A stretch of 64,000 nucleotides of DNA from Meghimatium bilineatum. Its lineage: Eukaryota; Mollusca; Gastropoda; Stylommatophora; Philomycidae. The first letter of the stretch is position 1. Each line of letters opens with the position of its first letter. The stretch is taken from the NCBI GenBank assembly GCA_034231615.1, contig CM067306.1, positions 37,417,571 through 37,481,570 of the forward strand. Reading direction: 5' to 3'. The notes beneath the pieces are model-generated. The model did not search any database. It was not told where the DNA came from and saw only the letters and a program-made list of their open reading frames with translations. The translations under genes were made by a program, and so were the position numbers. This document shows positions 28,541-54,329 of this stretch, piece by piece.

Positions 28541-29887
28541 CTATACAGGAAGATGGGCCGCCTCCATGAATTCAGTCGTCAGCACGAGGTCCTCACGGTT
28601 GCCCCACAGCTTCACCTTCAGATCTGTCTCTTGAGGCCATATTTTGGTTCTCACGTCATCAAAGAGTGGGCATGTCTGCAGAATATGTTCTGGAGTCTGG
28701 GGACCCTTTTGACATGGGCATTGGTCAGTTTGTGCAGCCTTAATTTTGTGGAGATGTGCTTGTAGTCTGCAGTGTCCTGTGCGAAGTCTAAAAATTGTGG
28801 TTTGTTGTGACCTGTTTAGCTTTAGAATAGGGTCATGTGGAAAGTTACTGCCTGTTCTCTGACTCCATGTATGTTTGTATATTCCTTTGATGAGGGTTTT
28901 TGCTTCCGTCAGTGATATTCTGTGGTGGAATTGTTCCTTTTTTGCACCTGCTTTTGCCAGTCTGTCAGCTCCTTCATTTCCTGCTATTCCACAGTGTGCA
29001 GGGATCCACTGCAGCACAACTTTATTGTTGGCAGATAGTTGATTTAGAAGTTCTACAGTTGTTTTTGTTAGGAGATCTTTAGGTTCCTTTTGGATGGTTT
29101 GGAGTACTGACATGCAGTCACACAAGAAGACCATGTTAGCTCCTTTGAGCCTCCGTTCCTCTAGAGCCTTTGATGCTTCCAAGATTGCTTGTAGCTCTGC
29201 CCTGTAATTTGTTGATAATTTGCCAGTAGCAATTGAGAGTTCTAGTTTTGGGGTGTTTGGTATGAGTATTAGTATCCCAGCTCCTCCTTTCTTTACTGCA
29301 CCCTCTGATGATCCATCTGTGAAGACATGAATCCACTGTGAGGTAGGGTATTGGGTGTCTAGGTGATCAAGTGTTTTTGCCTTAAGGGCAGTAGGGGTTT
29401 CCATAGTTTTGCTCTCAATGCCTGGTATTGTAAGTTTTGCTGTATATATGGGTGAAGTGTTTGTGATGTTGCAATATGCTTCTAGCTGTTCCCATTCATC
29501 CGGATTGTTGCTGGTTACTTCTTTATTGGCTTTCATAAGTTTTTTTGATAGGTGATTGAAGCTTGGTCTTTTCAGTCTGTTTTTTGTTAGTTCTTTTGTT
29601 TTTTCATGCATAGGGTGATGTTTCAGACCTCTAAATTTTTCTGTCATTATTGTGATTTTCTCATCCCTGCGGTCTGTTAGGTTTTGTAATCCTGCTGTTG
29701 CTTCCATTGATGTTATAGGTGTGCTCCTTAGTCCTCCTGTTATGATTCGGAGACCTGCATTTTGAATTTTGTCCAGCTTTTGAAGATTGGTATTTGCTGC
29801 TGTTGCATATGTGGTCAATCCATATTCCAGAGTTGGACGAATGTGACCTACATAGACTGTCTTATGGTTTTTATGTTGGCTCCCCAA
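28541..29887 (-). CDS. LINE ORF2 continuation, RNase H and Cys/His end
   Basis: The C-terminal part of the same polyprotein, in a different frame and overlapping the upstream frame by 40 bp. The ATG at 29887 is probably not a real start; the reading joins at about VYVGHIRPTLEYG (11-23), which is normal post-palm sequence. RNase H removes the RNA strand during cDNA synthesis. Its expected acidic residues are visible: TDGS (190-193), E in ELQAI (231-235), D257 in FLCDCMSVL, and D308 in WIPAHCGIAGNEGADRLA. After it come TTIFRLRTGHCRL (364-376) and CPCQKGPQTPEHILQTC (390-406), a small Cys/His motif known from this superclade. The stop is followed within about 30 bp by the GAAG tail. No internal stop is present in 448 codons, so only one lesion is visible over about 1,200 codons. 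Confidence 0.93.
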   Translation of the reverse strand: MGSQHKNHKTVYVGHIRPTLEYGLTTYATAANTNLQKLDKIQNAGLRIITGGLRSTPITSMEATAGLQNLTDRRDEKITIMTEKFRGLKHHPMHEKTKELTKNRLKRPSFNHLSKKLMKANKEVTSNNPDEWEQLEAYCNITNTSPIYTAKLTIPGIESKTMETPTALKAKTLDHLDTQYPTSQWIHVFTDGSSEGAVKKGGAGILILIPNTPKLELSIATGKLSTNYRAELQAILEASKALEERRLKGANMVFLCDCMSVLQTIQKEPKDLLTKTTVELLNQLSANNKVVLQWIPAHCGIAGNEGADRLAKAGAKKEQFHHRISLTEAKTLIKGIYKHTWSQRTGSNFPHDPILKLNRSQQTTIFRLRTGHCRLQAHLHKIKAAQTDQCPCQKGPQTPEHILQTCPLFDDVRTKIWPQETDLKVKLWGNREDLVLTTEFMEAAHLPV

Positions 29888-32187
29888 TCTGTCCCAGATA
29901 GTTTTTTCATTATTTGTAGTCTGCGTGTGGCTTTATTTTCTGTCTCTTCAATGTGTGATCCCCAAGTAAGTCTTTTGTCAAATTTTAGCCCCAGGTAGAC
30001 TGGGGTGTTTTCTTTTGGGAGTGGGGTGTTGTCTAGAGTGAGAGTATAATTTTCAGGCTTTGTGGAGAGGGTGAAAAGTGTAGTGACGGTCTTACTTTTG
30101 TTTATTTGAACACCCCAGGTTTTTGCCCACTCTTCAACTTTGTTTATTGCCTCCTGCATTCTAACTTTTGCAACTCCAATGTATTCTGATTGGGTCCAGA
30201 TAGCAAGATCGTCTGCATGGAGAGCTCTATGTACATATGGTGTGAATAGTTTTGGCAGATCGTCTATAAAAACTATAAAGAGTGTGGGGGACAGAATTCC
30301 TCCCTGTGGGACACCTTCTGTTATGTTGACCATTTTACTTTTCATTCCCTGGAGTTTGACTCTTGCATGTCTGCCTCGTAGGAAGCTTTTTATCCACTGA
30401 AACATTTTGCCTCTGATTCCTTTCTGTGCAAGTTTTAGCAATAGCCCCTCTTTCCAGACTTTGTCAAAGGCCTTTGTGAGGTCAAAGAAGGTGGCTAGGA
30501 GGTTTGATTTTTTCTGGAAAGCATCTTCTATTTCCTGGGCAAGGTATGTTGTTTGGTCCTCAGTGCATCTGTGTTTTCTGAAGCCTGATTGGCAGTCATC
30601 TAGAAGATTGTTTTCCTCCAGGTAGTTTAAGAGTCTGTTATTCACCATTTTTTCCATGACCTTTCCTAAGCAACTAAGTAGACTGATAGGGCGGTAACTT
30701 GTTTTGTTGGTTTTTGGTTTTCCTTTCTTGGCAATTGGAATTATTTCTGCCTCTTTCCATTCTTCTGGGAAGATCCCTTGCGCCCATGATTCATTAAAAA
30801 GGTCTAGGATTCTGCTTCTACCCACAGGACCTAGGTGTTGGAGCATTTCATTTGTGATTCCATCGGGTCCAGGGGCTTTCTTCTTTTTTAGATTTTGAAT
30901 TGCCATGTTAAGTTCTGATTTGTGAAAAGGTGAGGTCATTGTGCCTGGGCAAGGTTGATGTTTATTTACAAGGTTTTTTGTCTCTCGTCTTACTTCAGCA
31001 GTTCTTGTTCTAGTTATCTTAATTTTGCTTTCTTCAGCATAGGAGTCTGCTAGAATATTTGCAGCTTGTGTGCCAGTGTAGGACTTCCCCTTGTCTTCTA
31101 TGATGATACTACTTTGGGGGTTGTTTTCTTCATTGAGACACTTGATAAGTTTGCACATTTTTGTTGAGTCTTTTTCCATGTTGAGTGTTGCTGTTTTTTC
31201 TTTCCAGCTGGATCTAATGCTGTTTAGCTTTTCTCTCCTGAAAATTTCTTGCAGTCTATTGTGTTCAGTGATATTGGTTTCTGTTGGTCTAGTTTCCATC
31301 TTGGATCTTGCAGCAGAGGCTTCATCATGCATAACCTGGAGTGTTTTGTTCCAGAAGGGTTTGTAGTTTTGTCTTCTTCCTCTAGGTATACTGTTGTTGG
31401 CAGCTTCCAGGATTATTCCTGTTATTAATTTTGCATCTTTCCGTATATTTCTTGCTGTAAGATGTGTTAGTAGTTTTTCCTCTGTAAGGCGTTGGTAAGT
31501 GTCCCAGTTAGCCTTTTTGTAGTTCCAGCTAGCGATTTTGTGTTGTTGCTTTTCTGTCTTGTGGTTCCCTTTTATTGTTAATATTACGGGCTTGTGGTCA
31601 CTCCCACCAAGCTGTTGTGCCACTACTCTTTCTGTCACACGTTGGATGTCTTCTGTTGCAATGGCCAGATCTGGAATGCTCTGAGATTTCCATCGTCTGG
31701 AGTAAAAGGTTGGCTCTGATAGATGTTCATTTATAAGGATTAGCTTATTTTCTATCATCCAGTCTTCTATTTCTTCTCCTCTCAAGTCCATAGTTGGGTA
31801 ACCCCAGCTTGGGGAATGACTGTTGAAATCTCCAACTATAATATGATTTGATGATGTGAGAGGTATTGTCCTGAGGTGTAATTTTTTGTTGTTTGGGCAG
31901 TAGAAATTTGTGATAATCAGTGGTTTTGGGGTTGTATGTAATTTGATGGTGAGATGTTCTGAGTCCTCTGGGTTACGTGCGATTTCTGTAGTAGGTATGT
32001 TATTTCGTACCATTGTGATGATCCCTCCTTTGTGGCCTAATCTATCTAATCTGAAGCATTCAAAGCCTCTGATGGAGAATCTGTTGCTGTCATCAAGATG
32101 TGTCTCCTGAATGCACAAGACATCAATCTTTTTGTGATTCTTTACGATTGCATTGTTTCGGGGATCCTTGCGGATTATCGAGGAAAT
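29848..32187 (-). CDS. LINE ORF2, endonuclease and reverse transcriptase part
   Basis: The enzyme that nicks target DNA and copies the element RNA into the nick. The frame is open from 32187, 23 codons before the TTG at 32118; no true start is visible because the 5' end is truncated. Counting from 32118: CIQETHL (2-8) and GDFN (96-99) are endonuclease motifs, and SDHKPV (173-178) holds its catalytic SDH. KAPGPDGI is at 414-421, YRPISLL at 475-481 and SGFRKHRCTEDQ at 511-522. Motif A FFDLTKAFD is at 544-552, motif B GVPQGGILSP at 602-611, and motif C is at 634-637. Motif C reads HADD, where most relatives have YADD or FADD; the two catalytic aspartates are kept. YLGLKFDKRLTW at 708-719 is the thumb start. 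The frame ends at 29848 after a frame change shortly before, and the protein continues in the next frame. The RNase H motifs point to the I superclade; the exact clade is uncertain. Confidence 0.93.
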   Translation of the reverse strand: MSSIIRKDPRNNAIVKNHKKIDVLCIQETHLDDSNRFSIRGFECFRLDRLGHKGGIITMVRNNIPTTEIARNPEDSEHLTIKLHTTPKPLIITNFYCPNNKKLHLRTIPLTSSNHIIVGDFNSHSPSWGYPTMDLRGEEIEDWMIENKLILINEHLSEPTFYSRRWKSQSIPDLAIATEDIQRVTERVVAQQLGGSDHKPVILTIKGNHKTEKQQHKIASWNYKKANWDTYQRLTEEKLLTHLTARNIRKDAKLITGIILEAANNSIPRGRRQNYKPFWNKTLQVMHDEASAARSKMETRPTETNITEHNRLQEIFRREKLNSIRSSWKEKTATLNMEKDSTKMCKLIKCLNEENNPQSSIIIEDKGKSYTGTQAANILADSYAEESKIKITRTRTAEVRRETKNLVNKHQPCPGTMTSPFHKSELNMAIQNLKKKKAPGPDGITNEMLQHLGPVGRSRILDLFNESWAQGIFPEEWKEAEIIPIAKKGKPKTNKTSYRPISLLSCLGKVMEKMVNNRLLNYLEENNLLDDCQSGFRKHRCTEDQTTYLAQEIEDAFQKKSNLLATFFDLTKAFDKVWKEGLLLKLAQKGIRGKMFQWIKSFLRGRHARVKLQGMKSKMVNITEGVPQGGILSPTLFIVFIDDLPKLFTPYVHRALHADDLAIWTQSEYIGVAKVRMQEAINKVEEWAKTWGVQINKSKTVTTLFTLSTKPENYTLTLDNTPLPKENTPVYLGLKFDKRLTWGSHIEETENKATRRLQIMKKLSGTDWGANIKTIRQSM

Positions 32188-41214: not shown

Positions 41215-41757
41215 AGACGTGGCTGAAGTCGACAGCCCTCTGAAGTCTACATCTCTCTGAAGTCGACTGCCATCTGAAGTCGACAGCCCTCTGAAGTCGA
41301 CAGCCCTCTGAAGTCGACAGCCCTCTGAAGTCGACAGCCCTCTGAAGTCGACAGCCCTCTGAAGTCGACATCCCTCTGAAGTCGACATCCCTCTGAAGTC
41401 GACAGCCTTCTGTAGTCGACAGCCTTCTGAAGTCGACATCCCTCTGAAGTCGACATCCCTCTGAAGTCGACAGCCTCTGAAGTCGACAGCCCTCTGAAGT
41501 CGACAGCCCTCTGAAATCGACAGCCCTCTGAAGTCGACAGTCCTCTGAAGTCGACAGCCATCTGAAGTCGACAGCCTTCTGAAATCGACAGCCCTCTGAA
41601 GTCGACAGCCCTCTGAAGTCGACAGCCCTCTGAAGTCGACATCCCTCTGAAGTCGACAGCCCTCTGAAGTCGACAGCCCTCTGAAGTCGACAGCCCTCTG
41701 AAGTCGACACCCATCTGAAGTCGACAGCCCTCTGAAATCGAGAGCCCTCTGAAGACT
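41215..41757. repeat. 17-bp minisatellite, about 31 copies
   Basis: TGAAGTCGACAGCCCTC with AGCCTTC, ATCCCTC and AGCCATC variants. A GTCGAC (SalI) site is present in nearly every unit. Confidence 0.97.
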
Positions 41758-41884: not shown

Positions 41885-41953
41885 CATCCCATAACCTCCT
41901 TAGTCGCCTCTTACGACATGCATGGAAGGTAAACAGTGTTGCTATTCTTTGTC
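41885..41953 (-). mobile_element. GAAG-tailed SINE, inverted 5' fragment
   Basis: CATCCCATAACCTCCTTAGT, CGCCTCTTACGACATGCATG and GAAGGTAAACAGTGTTGCTA read as the 5' half of the SINE on the minus strand. It lies head to head with the next copy and forms a stem of about 70 bp with it. Confidence 0.9.
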
Positions 41954-41954
41954 G

Positions 41955-42221
41955 AGGCCCGAAAGGGGAGAAAAGAATAGCAGCGCTGTTTACCTTCTAT
42001 GCATGTCGTAAAAGGCGAATAAGGAGGTTATGGGAGGGGGTTGGCTGTCCCATCCCATATAGGGTCAGTGACCCAAATCCATGCTGAAGTCGGATGTGTC
42101 AGGCCGAAAGGCGCTGATATCACAGCAATGATGTAAACCATGACACAACGCATTCCGTTCTCCGGACTACATCCTGCTAATATGCAGGAGTTTGAGAACG
42201 AACGCAGAAGACGAAGAAGAG
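41955..42221 (+). mobile_element. GAAG-tailed SINE, nearly full length
   Basis: From GGCCCGAAAGGGGAGAAAAG to GAACGCAGAAGACGAAGAAG. It lacks only the first 18 or so bases of the 5' end. Its tail is followed directly by the RNase H fragment of a GAAG-tailed LINE. Confidence 0.92.
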
Positions 42222-43409: not shown

Positions 43410-44163
43410 ATTCCTGTTATATACACACGCAGAAGGTAGAATTTCATTAACATGTCTGCTATATACACACGCAGAAGGTAGAATTTGATTAACATGTCTG
43501 CTATATAGACACGCAGAAGGTAGAATTTAATTAACATGTCTGCTATATACACACGCAGAAGGTAGAATTTCATTAACATGTCTGCTATATACACACACGC
43601 AGAAGGTAGAATTTCATTAACATGTCTGCTATATACACACACGCAGAAGGTAGAATTTCATTAACATGTCTGCTATATACACACGCAGAAGGTAGAATTT
43701 CATTAACATGTCTGCTATATACACACGCAGAAGGTAGAATTTGATTAACATGTCTGCTATATACACACGCAGAAGGTAGAATTTCATTAACATGTCTGCT
43801 ATATACACACGCAGAAGGTAGAATTTGATTAACATGTCTGCTATATACACACGCAGAAGGTAGAATTTCATTAACATGTCTGCTATATACACACGCAGAA
43901 GGTAGAATTTCATTAACATGTCTGCTATATACACACACGCAGAAGGTAGAATTTCATTAACATGTCTGCTATATACACACACGCAGAAGGTAGAATTTGA
44001 TTAACATGTCTGCTATATACACACGCAGAAGGTAGAATTTGATTAACATGTCTGCTATATACACACGCAGAACGTAGAATTTGATTAACATGTCTGCTAT
44101 ATACACACGCAGAACGTAGAATTTGATTAACATGTCTGCTTTATACACACGCAGAACGTAGAA
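43410..44163. repeat. 42-bp minisatellite, about 18 copies
   Basis: The unit holds GAAGGTAGAATTTCATTAAC then ATGTCTGCTATATACACACG and CA. Some units have one extra AC (44 bp), and TTTCATT alternates with TTTGATT. Confidence 0.97.
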
Positions 44164-44274
44164 TTCTATCGTTTTGGTGGTTTCTTGTCAAATCATAACA
44201 TATAGCGGAGTGTTGATCTATTCTAAGTATGAAACATTCAACTTCAGAATGCTTTTTACGTTACTTGGACCCTA

Positions 44275-44362
44275 CACGATGGGACAGCTGATATCACCCT
44301 AAAACTTCATTAGTCACTTCTCACGACATGCTTGGCAGATACGCTATTCTTTTCTCTTGAGA
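44275..44362 (-). mobile_element. GAAG-tailed SINE, diverged middle fragment
   Basis: GATGGGACAGCTGATATCAC, then CATTAGTCACTTCTCACGAC and ATGCTTGGCAGATACGCTAT. This follows the order of the SINE middle on the minus strand. Confidence 0.6.
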
Positions 44363-50941: not shown

Positions 50942-51544
50942 TTCTTTTTCCACTATTGTCACTCTGGGCCAGTGTATTTGCCTCAGAATTTCATATTCCA
51001 GGCATTCCTGAAGAATATGTTCTGCATTTTATCAAGACTATTTTATAAAACACGATGAGTAAACAACAGCACTTACTACGATTACACAACAATGTCAAAA
51101 ATATCACAGATCATTTTCCTGTTTCTGGTGTGAGATCAGGACATTTTCCGATATTTTGGCTATTTATATCTATTTCCTGCATGCAATGGGACATTTTTCC
51201 ATAATTTTTTTTCATACCAAAAAGACATCAAAAACCTAGTTGCCTGCTACCCAGATAAGAGTGTGTATTGAATACCTGTCCATAATTATGTCAACAATTT
51301 TTGCCAACTTTCTAGAACACCCCCCCCCCCGCCTCCTCCCGTTGTAAAAAATTGCCATGAATTCGGGAACTTCAAATTACTTTACATCGTTCCTATTTCC
51401 ATCACCGTTCTCATTTCTTTCAATTAAAAAAGTGCAGGGAGATTGTAGAAAGAACTACATTCCAACATAACCTAATGGGATTAATGTCTTTGCAACTCAC
51501 GACCAAGCGATTTGGATTCTATAGCACGTTTCACTAGCTTTCCA
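50942..51544. other. no gene seen; poly-C run
   Basis: AT-rich with a run of C near 51318-51330. Nothing else was recognised. Confidence 0.5.
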
Positions 51545-51556
51545 TAATTTCAGAAT

Positions 51557-51840
51557 CTTCTTCTTCTTCATCTGTGTTCGCGCTCAAACTCCTGCAGATT
51601 AGCAGGACGTAGTCCGGAAAACGGAATGCGTTGTGTCATGGTTTACAGCATTGCTGCGATACCTGCGCCTTTCGGCCTGACACATACGACTTCAGCATGG
51701 CTTTGGGTCACTGACCCTATATGGAATGGGACAGCCAACTCCATCCTATAACCTCCTTAGTCACCTTTTACGACATTCCTGGAAGGTAAACAGTGTTGCT
51801 ATTCTTTGCTCCCCTTTCGGGCCCCGACAACACACGGGCG
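51557..51840 (-). mobile_element. GAAG-tailed SINE, complete, with target duplication
   Basis: The minus-strand 5' end CGCCCGTGTGTTGTCGGGGC lies at 51840 and the tail CTTCTTCTTCT-complement at 51557. All blocks are present. The 12-bp direct repeats TAATTTCAGAAT (51545-51556 and 51841-51852) mark a clean insertion. This is a good reference copy for the family. Confidence 0.96.
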
Positions 51841-51962
51841 TAATTTCAGAATGATATATCTCATAAAATATATAACATATTTAATCAAAATTGTGTGTGT
51901 GAATTAGAAATGGTATAATTTAACAAGCAGTTAAATTTTTCATTAAAATGCAGTCATTGGTT

Positions 51963-52239
51963 TTTCTTCTTCTTCGTTCATTCTCAAACTCCTGCAGATT
52001 AGCAGGATGTAGTCCGGAGAACGGAATGCGTTGTGTCATGGTTTGCAGCATTGCTGAGATATCTGCTCCTTTCGGCTGACACATCCGACTTAAGCGTGGC
52101 GTTGGGTCACTGACCCTATATGGGATGGGACAGCCAACTCCATCCCATAACCTCCTTAGTCGCCTTTTATGACATGCGTGGAAGGTAAATAGTGGTGCTA
52201 TTCTTTGCTCCCCTTTCGGGCCCCGGCAACACACGGGCG
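51963..52239 (-). mobile_element. GAAG-tailed SINE, complete, with target duplication
   Basis: Same orientation as its neighbour. The 5' end CGCCCGTGTGTTGCCGGGGC lies at 52239. The 11-bp duplication AGTCATTGGTT flanks it (51952-51962 and 52240-52250). Confidence 0.96.
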
Positions 52240-52338
52240 AGTCATTGGTTGTAATTTTGTTCATCTGCGAAAATATATCGAAAGTCTACTTGTCAGTACA
52301 ATCTCACACACAAATTTGAAGATGTTTACAGTCAGTTA

Positions 52339-52598
52339 GGGAGCTGTGTTAGTGCAGTGGTTAGCGCACTGGCTTCGTATATGAGTTGTCCTGGGTTCAT
52401 TTCCCAGTTGAGACGGAAATGGGTTCTGGGTCGACCCAGTCTTAAATGGGTACCGGATTAATCTTCGGGAAGTAAAGACTGCGAGGGAGAGGAGATGGCT
52501 ACCGCCCTCATTTGCAGAGCCTCTGAAATGTGAGATCGCTAACATTTCACACCCCTACGGCATTAATAAACGCTATGGGTTACTTTTTTTTACTTACT
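52339..52598 (+). mobile_element. tRNA-headed SINE (family T), copy 2, complete
   Basis: GGGAGCTGTGTTAGTGCAGT starts a tRNA-like head with A box TTAGTGCAGTGGTTAGCGC (from 52349) and B box GGGTTCATTTCCC (from 52393). The body holds GGGTACCGGATTAATCTTCG, AAGTAAAGACTGCGAGGGAG and CGCCCTCATTTGCAGAGCCT. It ends CATTAATAAACGC with a T-rich tail. Flanks ACAGTCAGTTA (52328-52338) and ACAGTCAATTA (52599-52609) are a target duplication with one difference. Confidence 0.93.
52349..52405 (+). promoter_or_regulatory. RNA polymerase III A and B boxes of SINE T
   Basis: The A box (TTAGTGCAGTGG) and B box (GGTTCATTTCCC) sit about 45 bp apart, the spacing of a tRNA internal promoter. One B-box position departs from GGTTCGANTCC, so activity is uncertain. 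Confidence 0.7.
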
Positions 52599-52992
52599 AC
52601 AGTCAATTATAATATTGATATAATATATTCTTTCTCAATAAACTATGTGGTATCCGAGAACCACATATTGTTATGTGCACATATCCAGATTTAAATGCAT
52701 ATTTTATATTAATGTGTTGTAATATCTTCACGTGAGTAAATGTTTATGTCAATATATGCATATATCTTTATGTGGGCGAATGTTTATGTTAATGCATGCA
52801 TGTATTTATATTTGTGTGAGCAAATGTTTATGTGAATGCAAGTATGTTTGTATGATTGCATGATAGCAATAAGGCCAAACATTATCGTGTAACATACTTT
52901 GAACTGTAACAATTACAAAAAATGTAAACTCTTATGTCTTATTTTGGGTGCGTTCTCAAACTCATACAGATATATATATCAAAAGTCTAGAC
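52599..52992. repeat. AT-rich stretch with a loose 40-bp repeat
   Basis: TGTTTATGTNAATGCATGCA with TATCTTTATGTG recurs about four times in 52700-52850. GTGCGTTCTCAAACTCATAC near 52948 resembles the 3' end of the GAAG SINE on the minus strand. Confidence 0.5.
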
Positions 52993-53153
52993 CAGGGGTC
53001 GGCAACTTTTTGCTAACTGTGTGCCAACTTAAGGTTTCAAATTATTCAGAGTGCCAACATCACATATCAAGAAGAATGTGAAGAGTATGCGTGCCATTTG
53101 AAATTGCTTGGCGTACCAAGTGGGACACGCATGCCATAGGTTGCCGACCCTTG
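52993..53153. mobile_element. short hAT transposon (MITE)
   Basis: Ends CAGGGGTCGGCAACTT and AGGTTGCCGACCCTTG are inverted repeats with one or two differences. Flanks GTCTAGAC (52985-52992) and GTCTACAC (53154-53161) form an 8-bp duplication with one mismatch. It is 161 bp with no coding capacity. The termini differ from the 4758-5166 element only at a few positions, so both may have used a related transposase. Confidence 0.92.
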
Positions 53154-53235
53154 GTCTACACATCAAAAACCTAGTTTCCTGCTACCCAGAGAGTGTGTAT
53201 TGACTGCCTGCCCGTAAATTATGTCAAGAATTTTT

Positions 53236-53475
53236 GCCCAGAGGACTAGTCCAGAGAGCGGAATGCGTTGTGTCCTGATTTATAGCTTTACTACAATATC
53301 TACGTCTTTCGGCCTAACACATCCGACTTCAACATGGCTTCTGTGTCACTTTAGCCCTCTATGGAATAGGACAGCTAACTTCACCATAAACACTCTTTAG
53401 TCGCTTCCTACGACTTTCGTGGCAGGTAAACCATTGCTATTCTTTGCTCCCCTCATGGCCCAGTACTACACAGTG
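53236..53475 (-). mobile_element. GAAG-tailed SINE, diverged, 5' end expanded
   Basis: AGTCCAGAGAGCGGAATGCG, then CTTTCGGCCTAACACATCCG, TTTAGTCGCTTCCTACGACT and GTAAACCATTGCTATTCTTT. The 3' tail is missing. Its 5' end passes without a break into the 56-bp array. Confidence 0.85.
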
Positions 53476-54003
53476 GCAGGTAACACCATTGCTATTCTTT
53501 TCTCCTCTCAAGGCCCCAGCACCACACAGTGACAGGTAACACCATTGCTATTCTTTGCTCCTCTCAAGGCCCCAGCACCACACAATGACAGGTAACACCA
53601 TTGCTATTCTTTGCTCCTCTCAAGGCCCCAGCACCACATTGTGGCAGGTAACATCATTGCTATTCTTTGCTCCTCTCAAGGCCCCAGCACCACACAGTGA
53701 CAGGTAACACCATTGCTATTCTTTGCTCCTCTCAAGGCCCCAGCACCAAACAGTGACAGGTAATACCATTGCTATTCTTTTCTCCGCTCAAGGTCCCAGC
53801 ACCACTTTGTGGCAGGTAACACCGTTGCTATTCTTTGCTCCTCTCAAGGCCCCAGCACTACACAGTGACAGGTAACACCATTGCTATTCTTTGCTCCGCT
53901 CAAGGTCCCAGCACCACTTTGTGGCAGGTAACACCGTTGCTATTCTTTGCTGCTCTCAAGGTCCCAGCACCACTTTGTGGCAGGTAACACCATTGCTATT
54001 CTG
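53421..54003. repeat. 56-bp minisatellite, 11 copies, made from a SINE 5' end
   Basis: The unit holds GGCAGGTAACACCATTGCTA, TTCTTTGCTCCTCTCAAGGC and CCCAGCACCACACAGT. It corresponds to GGAAGGTAAACAGTGTTGCT, ATTCTTTGCTCCCCTTTCGG and GCCCCGACAACACACGG, the minus-strand 5' end of the SINE. Unit starts are spaced exactly 56 bp apart from 53475 on. Confidence 0.95.
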
Positions 54004-54329
54004 TACTTCCATCACAGTTCCCTTCAACATACCGCGACAGATGTAAATAAATACATTTTAAAATTAACATCAATAATTTGAATCGGGGAAGGAGGTGCAC
54101 AATTCATATTTTCTAGAAACGAAGAAAAGCATGGACGAAAATTCAAATAGTGTATTAAAACGCTTCTAAATTTGACATTTCTGGCTGTAAAATGTGGCAA
54201 TAAAACTCACGGATTTTTTTATCCGGCAACAGAAAATGTAAAGTTTCATATCATGATTAGATTACATAAGGAATAATGCGAAATATTGACTTGAAGTGAT
54301 AATTACAAACTGGATAGTTAAGCAAAGAT

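Follow-up and report, generated by a model that had tools for sequence, protein, structure and literature searches.

The window analysed here, a stretch of 64 kb (contig positions 37417571-37481570) from an assembly of 1.61 Gb in 32 contigs that was itself searched, carries a minisatellite joined to a degraded copy of a SINE-like element, with two complete copies of the same family close by (Table 1). The element measures ~280 bp, has constant ends and a (CTT)n tail on the plus strand, and is flanked by target-site duplications of 11-14 bases in copies A and B as well as in two copies elsewhere in the genome (L045 and L072). The element is termed SINE-like on the strength of its length, these constant ends, the tail and the duplications at its target sites. 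A pol III-type head, related to tRNA, 5S or 7SL RNA, was not recognised in it; the window holds no tRNA genes and no Rfam matches at the gathering score, and with E values of up to 10 allowed, the only Rfam match is a chance-level sRNA hit (E 4.7) inside copy B.

Table 1. Features around the minisatellite, in positions of the window.
Feature	Position	Strand	Basis or remark
Complete copy A, block present once, target-site duplication TAATTTCAGAAT	51552..51840	-	Blast
Complete copy B, block present once, target-site duplication AGTCATTGGTT	51961..52241	-	Blast
Separate repeat flanking the element	53160..53238	+	Second copy at 51225-51305, 87.8%
Degraded older SINE-like element without its 3' tail, its body continuous with the array	53240..53418	-	Blast to complete copies and alignment
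Minisatellite: ten copies, 54-56 bp each, of the 5' block of the element, and the start of an eleventh	53419..54003	-	TRF, unit cutting, alignment
Eleventh unit; tentatively the original 5' end of the element, since diverged	53983..54037	-	Shuffle comparisons

TRF reports the array at 53419-54002, with a period of 56, 10.5 copies and 90% matches. When cut at GGTAA (starts at 53425, 53479 and so on to 53983), it resolves into one unit of 54 bp, nine of 56 bp and an eleventh with only ~20 well-matching bases. Units 2-10 differ from one another by a mean of 5.2 of 56 bases, or 9.2%, and two unit types, with the endings ACACAGTGACA and ACTTTGTGGCA, are intermixed, unit 4 being a hybrid. The motif CTCCCC of unit 1, shared with the complete copies, is given no weight because older copies vary at that place. 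The sequence past 54003 may, with some reserve, be the element's own diverged 5' end: for the bases from there on, 4 of 1000 shuffles did as well in the comparison with the unit and 3 of 1000 in that with the end of an older copy (L014), the other four comparisons being weaker (17, 216, 266 and 885 of 1000). A proposal that the outer flank (53987-54074) is a second copy of 51384-51476 was rejected, its score of 43 lying within the random range and being reached also by 2 of 285 random window positions.

The element body adjoins the array at 53419 with zero gap. Against the majority reading of the young family, the body (53242-53418) shows 141 identities, 28 mismatches and 10 gap positions, and a blast match of 79.5% between 53242-53453 and copy A crosses the join. 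The body thus differs by ~20% from the young family, a figure to be set beside the 9.2% found among units 2-10. It also contains a 3-base insertion, which two diverged copies in the window (near 60.7 kb and 9.1 kb) share and the young copies aligned lack, so that the parent of the array belongs to an older subfamily than copies A and B. Among the family sequences compared, the array unit scored highest against an older copy (L022).

The likeness between the unit and the 5' block of the element is far beyond what composition gives. Compared with the block of copy A, the unit consensus reaches a best local score of 39, while 2000 dinucleotide shuffles have a mean of 12.4 and a maximum of 23. Next, 41 TRF rows from the window, with periods of 12-100 and a few of them overlapping, were scored against five family sequences and one other repeat, and the array is the sole clear match, with a score of 68 against the family and a shuffle maximum of 28; the other 40 rows give no clear match to the SINE-like family. 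The next-best row, 43414-44165, scores 25, with 1 of 100 shuffles as good, followed by 2364-2448 and 41223-41754 (5 and 6 of 100). The row at 43414-44165 is itself a 42-bp array of borderline family likeness, and an element fragment lies nearby at 44230-44341. The unit of the minisatellite is homologous to part of a dispersed SINE-like element, and the array is continuous with the rest of one of its copies.

The observation set out in the earlier note, which was made from the letters of the window, is confirmed by these results, and its interpretation is supported in substance. It had described a minus-strand element that runs unbroken into the array, a unit that is a diverged copy of the 5' block and complete elements nearby that hold this block once, all of which hold; it had also proposed a comparison of unit and block with random sequence of the same composition, and the unit proved far closer to the block than any shuffle. 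Its 11 units of 56 bp become ten full units and one more, either incomplete or strongly diverged, and its coordinates are correct within a few bases, except that the element starts near 53240 and the bases before this start belong to a separate repeat. The statement that the origin of the array can be read directly is borne out for the parent and the join, both of which are visible, but the outer end is unclear, the eleventh unit diverged and the 3' tail missing. The nearby complete copies belong to a younger subfamily than the parent.

Tandem copies of the 5' block also occur at many other copies of the family. The element and array together, used as the first query, gave 6867 candidates, of which the 40 scored are spread over many contigs; the array alone gave 51, and among the 40 of these scored, only two other places (L010 and L012) match over several units. 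At L010, the element body leads into 8.1 units of 55 bp, and this locus provides the best other multi-unit match to the array, at 71%. A genome search for two occurrences of a 13-base block word, CTATTCTTTGCTC, within 30-60 bases yielded 79 matches in 33 clusters, and a few of the arrays may be chance because the reversed-pattern control also gave 7 matches. Seven of the 33 clusters are copies of one dispersed element of more than 3 kb, which at each of these sites carries the SINE block in two copies (L040, L041, L042, L044, L047, L070 and L076). In 22 of the other 26 clusters, TRF places an array over the word (L043, L046, L054 and L059 have no such row), and the addition of L012 from the array-alone search brings the set to 23 arrays; the TRF locus set has 30 locus ids, L048 and L077 being the same place. 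The 23 arrays have periods of 21, 27, 31, 34, 36, 36, 45, 47, 48, 49, 49, 50, 50, 51, 52, 53, 53, 55, 55, 55, 56, 57 and 71, that is, 17 different lengths in all.

Parentage at these loci was judged by the joined body and by the unit itself. An element match of at least 100 bases overlaps the array start in 11 of the 23 arrays (the window, L010, L045, L060, L061, L062, L063, L066, L067, L071 and L072). In a late check, the 22 other units were compared with eight element copies under a null in which the flanks were shuffled around an unchanged 11-base core, and the likeness extends beyond the word in 17 of the 22, with 0 or 1 of 200 shuffles as good. The five units not clearly better than shuffles are those of L038 (6 of 200), L058 (20), L060 (52), L063 (31) and L075 (9); L060 and L063 count as element-derived through the joined body alone, while L038, L058 and L075 have neither joined body nor unit likeness and may not belong. 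Good parent evidence, in the form of a joined body or unit likeness, is therefore present for 20 of the 23 arrays, which have 15 different periods, and the copy number of the block arrays ranges from a fresh two-copy duplication up to 41.8 copies. The genome-wide search for further copies with a tandem 5' block, which the earlier note had suggested, thus returned 22 other arrays, 19 of them with good parent evidence. The arrays represent many separate births and not one array dispersed.

The first steps of such births are best seen at L072, a young copy (92.5% to copy B) that is flanked on both sides by the target-site duplication AAAAGTAGTTATC and contains a perfect 50-bp duplication. Matches at a shift of 50 run over 54 bases there, i.e. 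50 + 4, and both ends of the duplicated stretch therefore had four bases (CTTT) in common. Overlaps of 5 and 3 bases are found at L071 and L063, so that a short overlap is present in three of the 14 other loci tried; at L045 and L062, the match run is one base shorter than the period, meaning no overlap, and the remaining loci were too diverged or without clear result, a fixed period not fitting L061 and L064. At the window locus, 1890 of 2000 shuffles did as well as the short, imperfect repeat suggested on either side of the block, and flanking direct repeats of 5-10 bp, as in the model of Haber and Louis, which serves as an analogy only, were not found. A hairpin as trigger is not supported either, because the DNA of the 5' block does not fold unusually (z +0.78).

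The ends of the duplicated stretch, mapped at 26 loci (a set without L043 and the seven-site element, and with one word of L012 altered to allow its units to be cut), lie within the block, near the element's 5' end and, at L046, outside the element, although several fits are poor and long unexplained fillers occur in L038, L058, L059, L073 and L074. In the L046 unit, 22-25 bases look like flanking sequence beyond the limits of the element, and the unit would, most simply, reflect a duplication after insertion.

Tandem duplication after insertion, followed by slippage or unequal exchange, best explains the array, with a probability of about 0.85. A SINE-like retroposon would have inserted at the locus long ago, and a later DNA tandem duplication would have copied a stretch that begins a little way into the body (GTGGCAGG...) and ends at or near the 5' terminus of the element. 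With a second copy in place, replication slippage or unequal exchange could have brought the count to about eleven and held the middle units fairly similar. The sequences show the parentage, the join, the unit structure, the mixing of two unit types and the arrays at many other family members, and the lower divergence among units 2-10 than between the body and the young family also speaks for this account. The order of events at the window locus and the copying mechanism are what we infer from these patterns, and the array is assumed to be without function.

It is unlikely, albeit worth weighing, that the first duplication took place during insertion, the reverse transcriptase having jumped back internally at the 5' end of the RNA and added 5' blocks that slippage then enlarged. 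At seven of the 26 loci (the window, L039, L045, L054, L065, L066 and L077), the unit's outer end was mapped to within ~8 bases of the 5' terminus of the element, which is suggestive only, being a modest excess among end fits of which several are poor, and at L045, the duplicated element sits inside a 14-base target-site duplication. Template jumping nevertheless leaves unexplained the breaks inside the block (L062, L063, L069, L071 and L072) and the flanking DNA at L046, and tandem repeats also come from another part of the element. That the array-bearing elements form a dispersed subfamily, which moved with at least two 5' blocks already present, is very improbable: the element of more than 3 kb has a two-copy block at seven sites, so mobility can spread a duplicated block, but the diversity of periods among the 23 arrays, their varied joins and the 71% of the best other multi-unit match all argue otherwise. 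A likeness by chance, or an older array from which the element took its 5' block, deserves practically no credence, since nothing was found in its favour, the unit score of 39 against at most 23 in 2000 shuffles refutes chance, and the 6867 candidates for element plus array, the 40 scored lying on many contigs, contrast with the 51 for the array alone, only two of those scored matching over several units.

The 5' block is not alone in giving tandem repeats. The idea of this block as a special hotspot was at first fitted by a body word, GGAATGCGTTGTG, with 6 matches at 2 loci; a second body word, GACTTCAGCATGG, gave 127 matches, and the places listed make up 14 candidate loci defined by word matches, 7 of which hold two or more matches and one of which would hold ~60 copies of 31 bp. 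Single-word counts in 115,175 bases sampled are 5 for the block and 7 and 6 for the others, i.e. about equally common. In addition, in a copy of the SINE-like element at L014:1088-1306, the CTCCTGCAGATTA stretch close to the 3' end has grown into a 20-bp array. The hotspot idea was rejected, and the 5' block is no unique hotspot because another part of the element also yields tandem repeats. A broader reading, which we hold tentatively and at somewhat less than even odds, is that short tandem duplications arise unusually often in this genome, so that any abundant dispersed element may act as a seed library, and that the SINE-like family repeatedly seeds minisatellites at several positions, with every stage from a two-copy to a ~60-copy array readable.

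The array is an ordinary, clear member of the known minisatellites and satellites derived from SINEs. The squamate SINE-derived satellites (sSats) of Vassetzky et al. (2023) are, in the part of the paper available, linked to subtelomeres and described as having units of partial SINEs, end units that reach the SINE terminus, alternating subvariants, short loci and differing breakpoints (PMC10702118). The present arrays are like them in the tandem repetition of part of a SINE, in variant breakpoints, alternating unit subvariants and many short loci, and unlike them in the gastropod host and in block-array periods of 21-71 bp. Alu-derived minisatellites (Jurka and Gentles 2006) and a B1-derived VNTR (Bois et al. 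1998), as described in the available parts of PMC3389668 and PMC6947457, likewise arise from a SINE segment, their origin being ascribed in those sources to short direct repeats on both sides of the unit; here, the SINE and the host are different, and overlaps of 3-5 bases are seen at three other loci, with none at the window join. PMC9659126 also bears on such repeats. Another gastropod, the limpet Patella caerulea, has PcH-sat (Petraccioli et al. 2024; PMC11121367), which likewise repeats a portion of a SINE in tandem: as far as the available text of that paper extends, it derives from a Nin-SINE and differs in being a pericentromeric satellite whose 179-bp unit has a 3' part of the SINE, and arrays joined to a parent copy were not found in it. 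No description of the present element or its arrays was found in the open-access literature, judged mostly by titles and the openings of abstracts.

The starts of minisatellites are hard to study, as the parent sequence is usually gone. In this genome, a single element family offers many independent arrays together with their parent, whose age can be gauged from its divergence, and counting joins, overlap lengths and copy numbers over all copies would separate slippage, unequal exchange and template jumping. The value lies in this natural series within one genome, from fresh duplication to long arrays, whereas one locus by itself contributes little that the cases from Alu, B1, squamates and the limpet do not already offer.

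Several other repeats were observed in the window. Minisatellites are very dense, with 39 stretches of period at least 10 making up 26.7% of the 64 kb. A short inverted-repeat element at 52985-53161, which resembles a hAT-type MITE, has arms of 29 nt that are 83% complementary, a CAGGGGTCGGC end and an 8-base near-repeat, GTCTAGAC/GTCTACAC, one on each side. A different repeat at 52320-52600 begins with a weak tRNA-like match (E 0.49, under the gathering score), and its relatives lie at 12.5-12.8 kb and 56.4-56.8 kb. At 41885-42220, two 5' parts of the SINE-like element stand head to head, opposite-strand blast pieces meeting near 41950. On the minus strand, 28541-32187 holds LINE-like reverse transcriptase and RNase H frames, whose relatives carry those Pfam domains; the reverse-transcriptase frame (29848-32187) has 779 residues, and a search with residues 1-500 points to a host that is probably a gastropod: the organism-named sequences among the 120 relatives listed are from molluscs, namely the gastropods Littorina, Bradybaena and Batillaria, and Mytilus.
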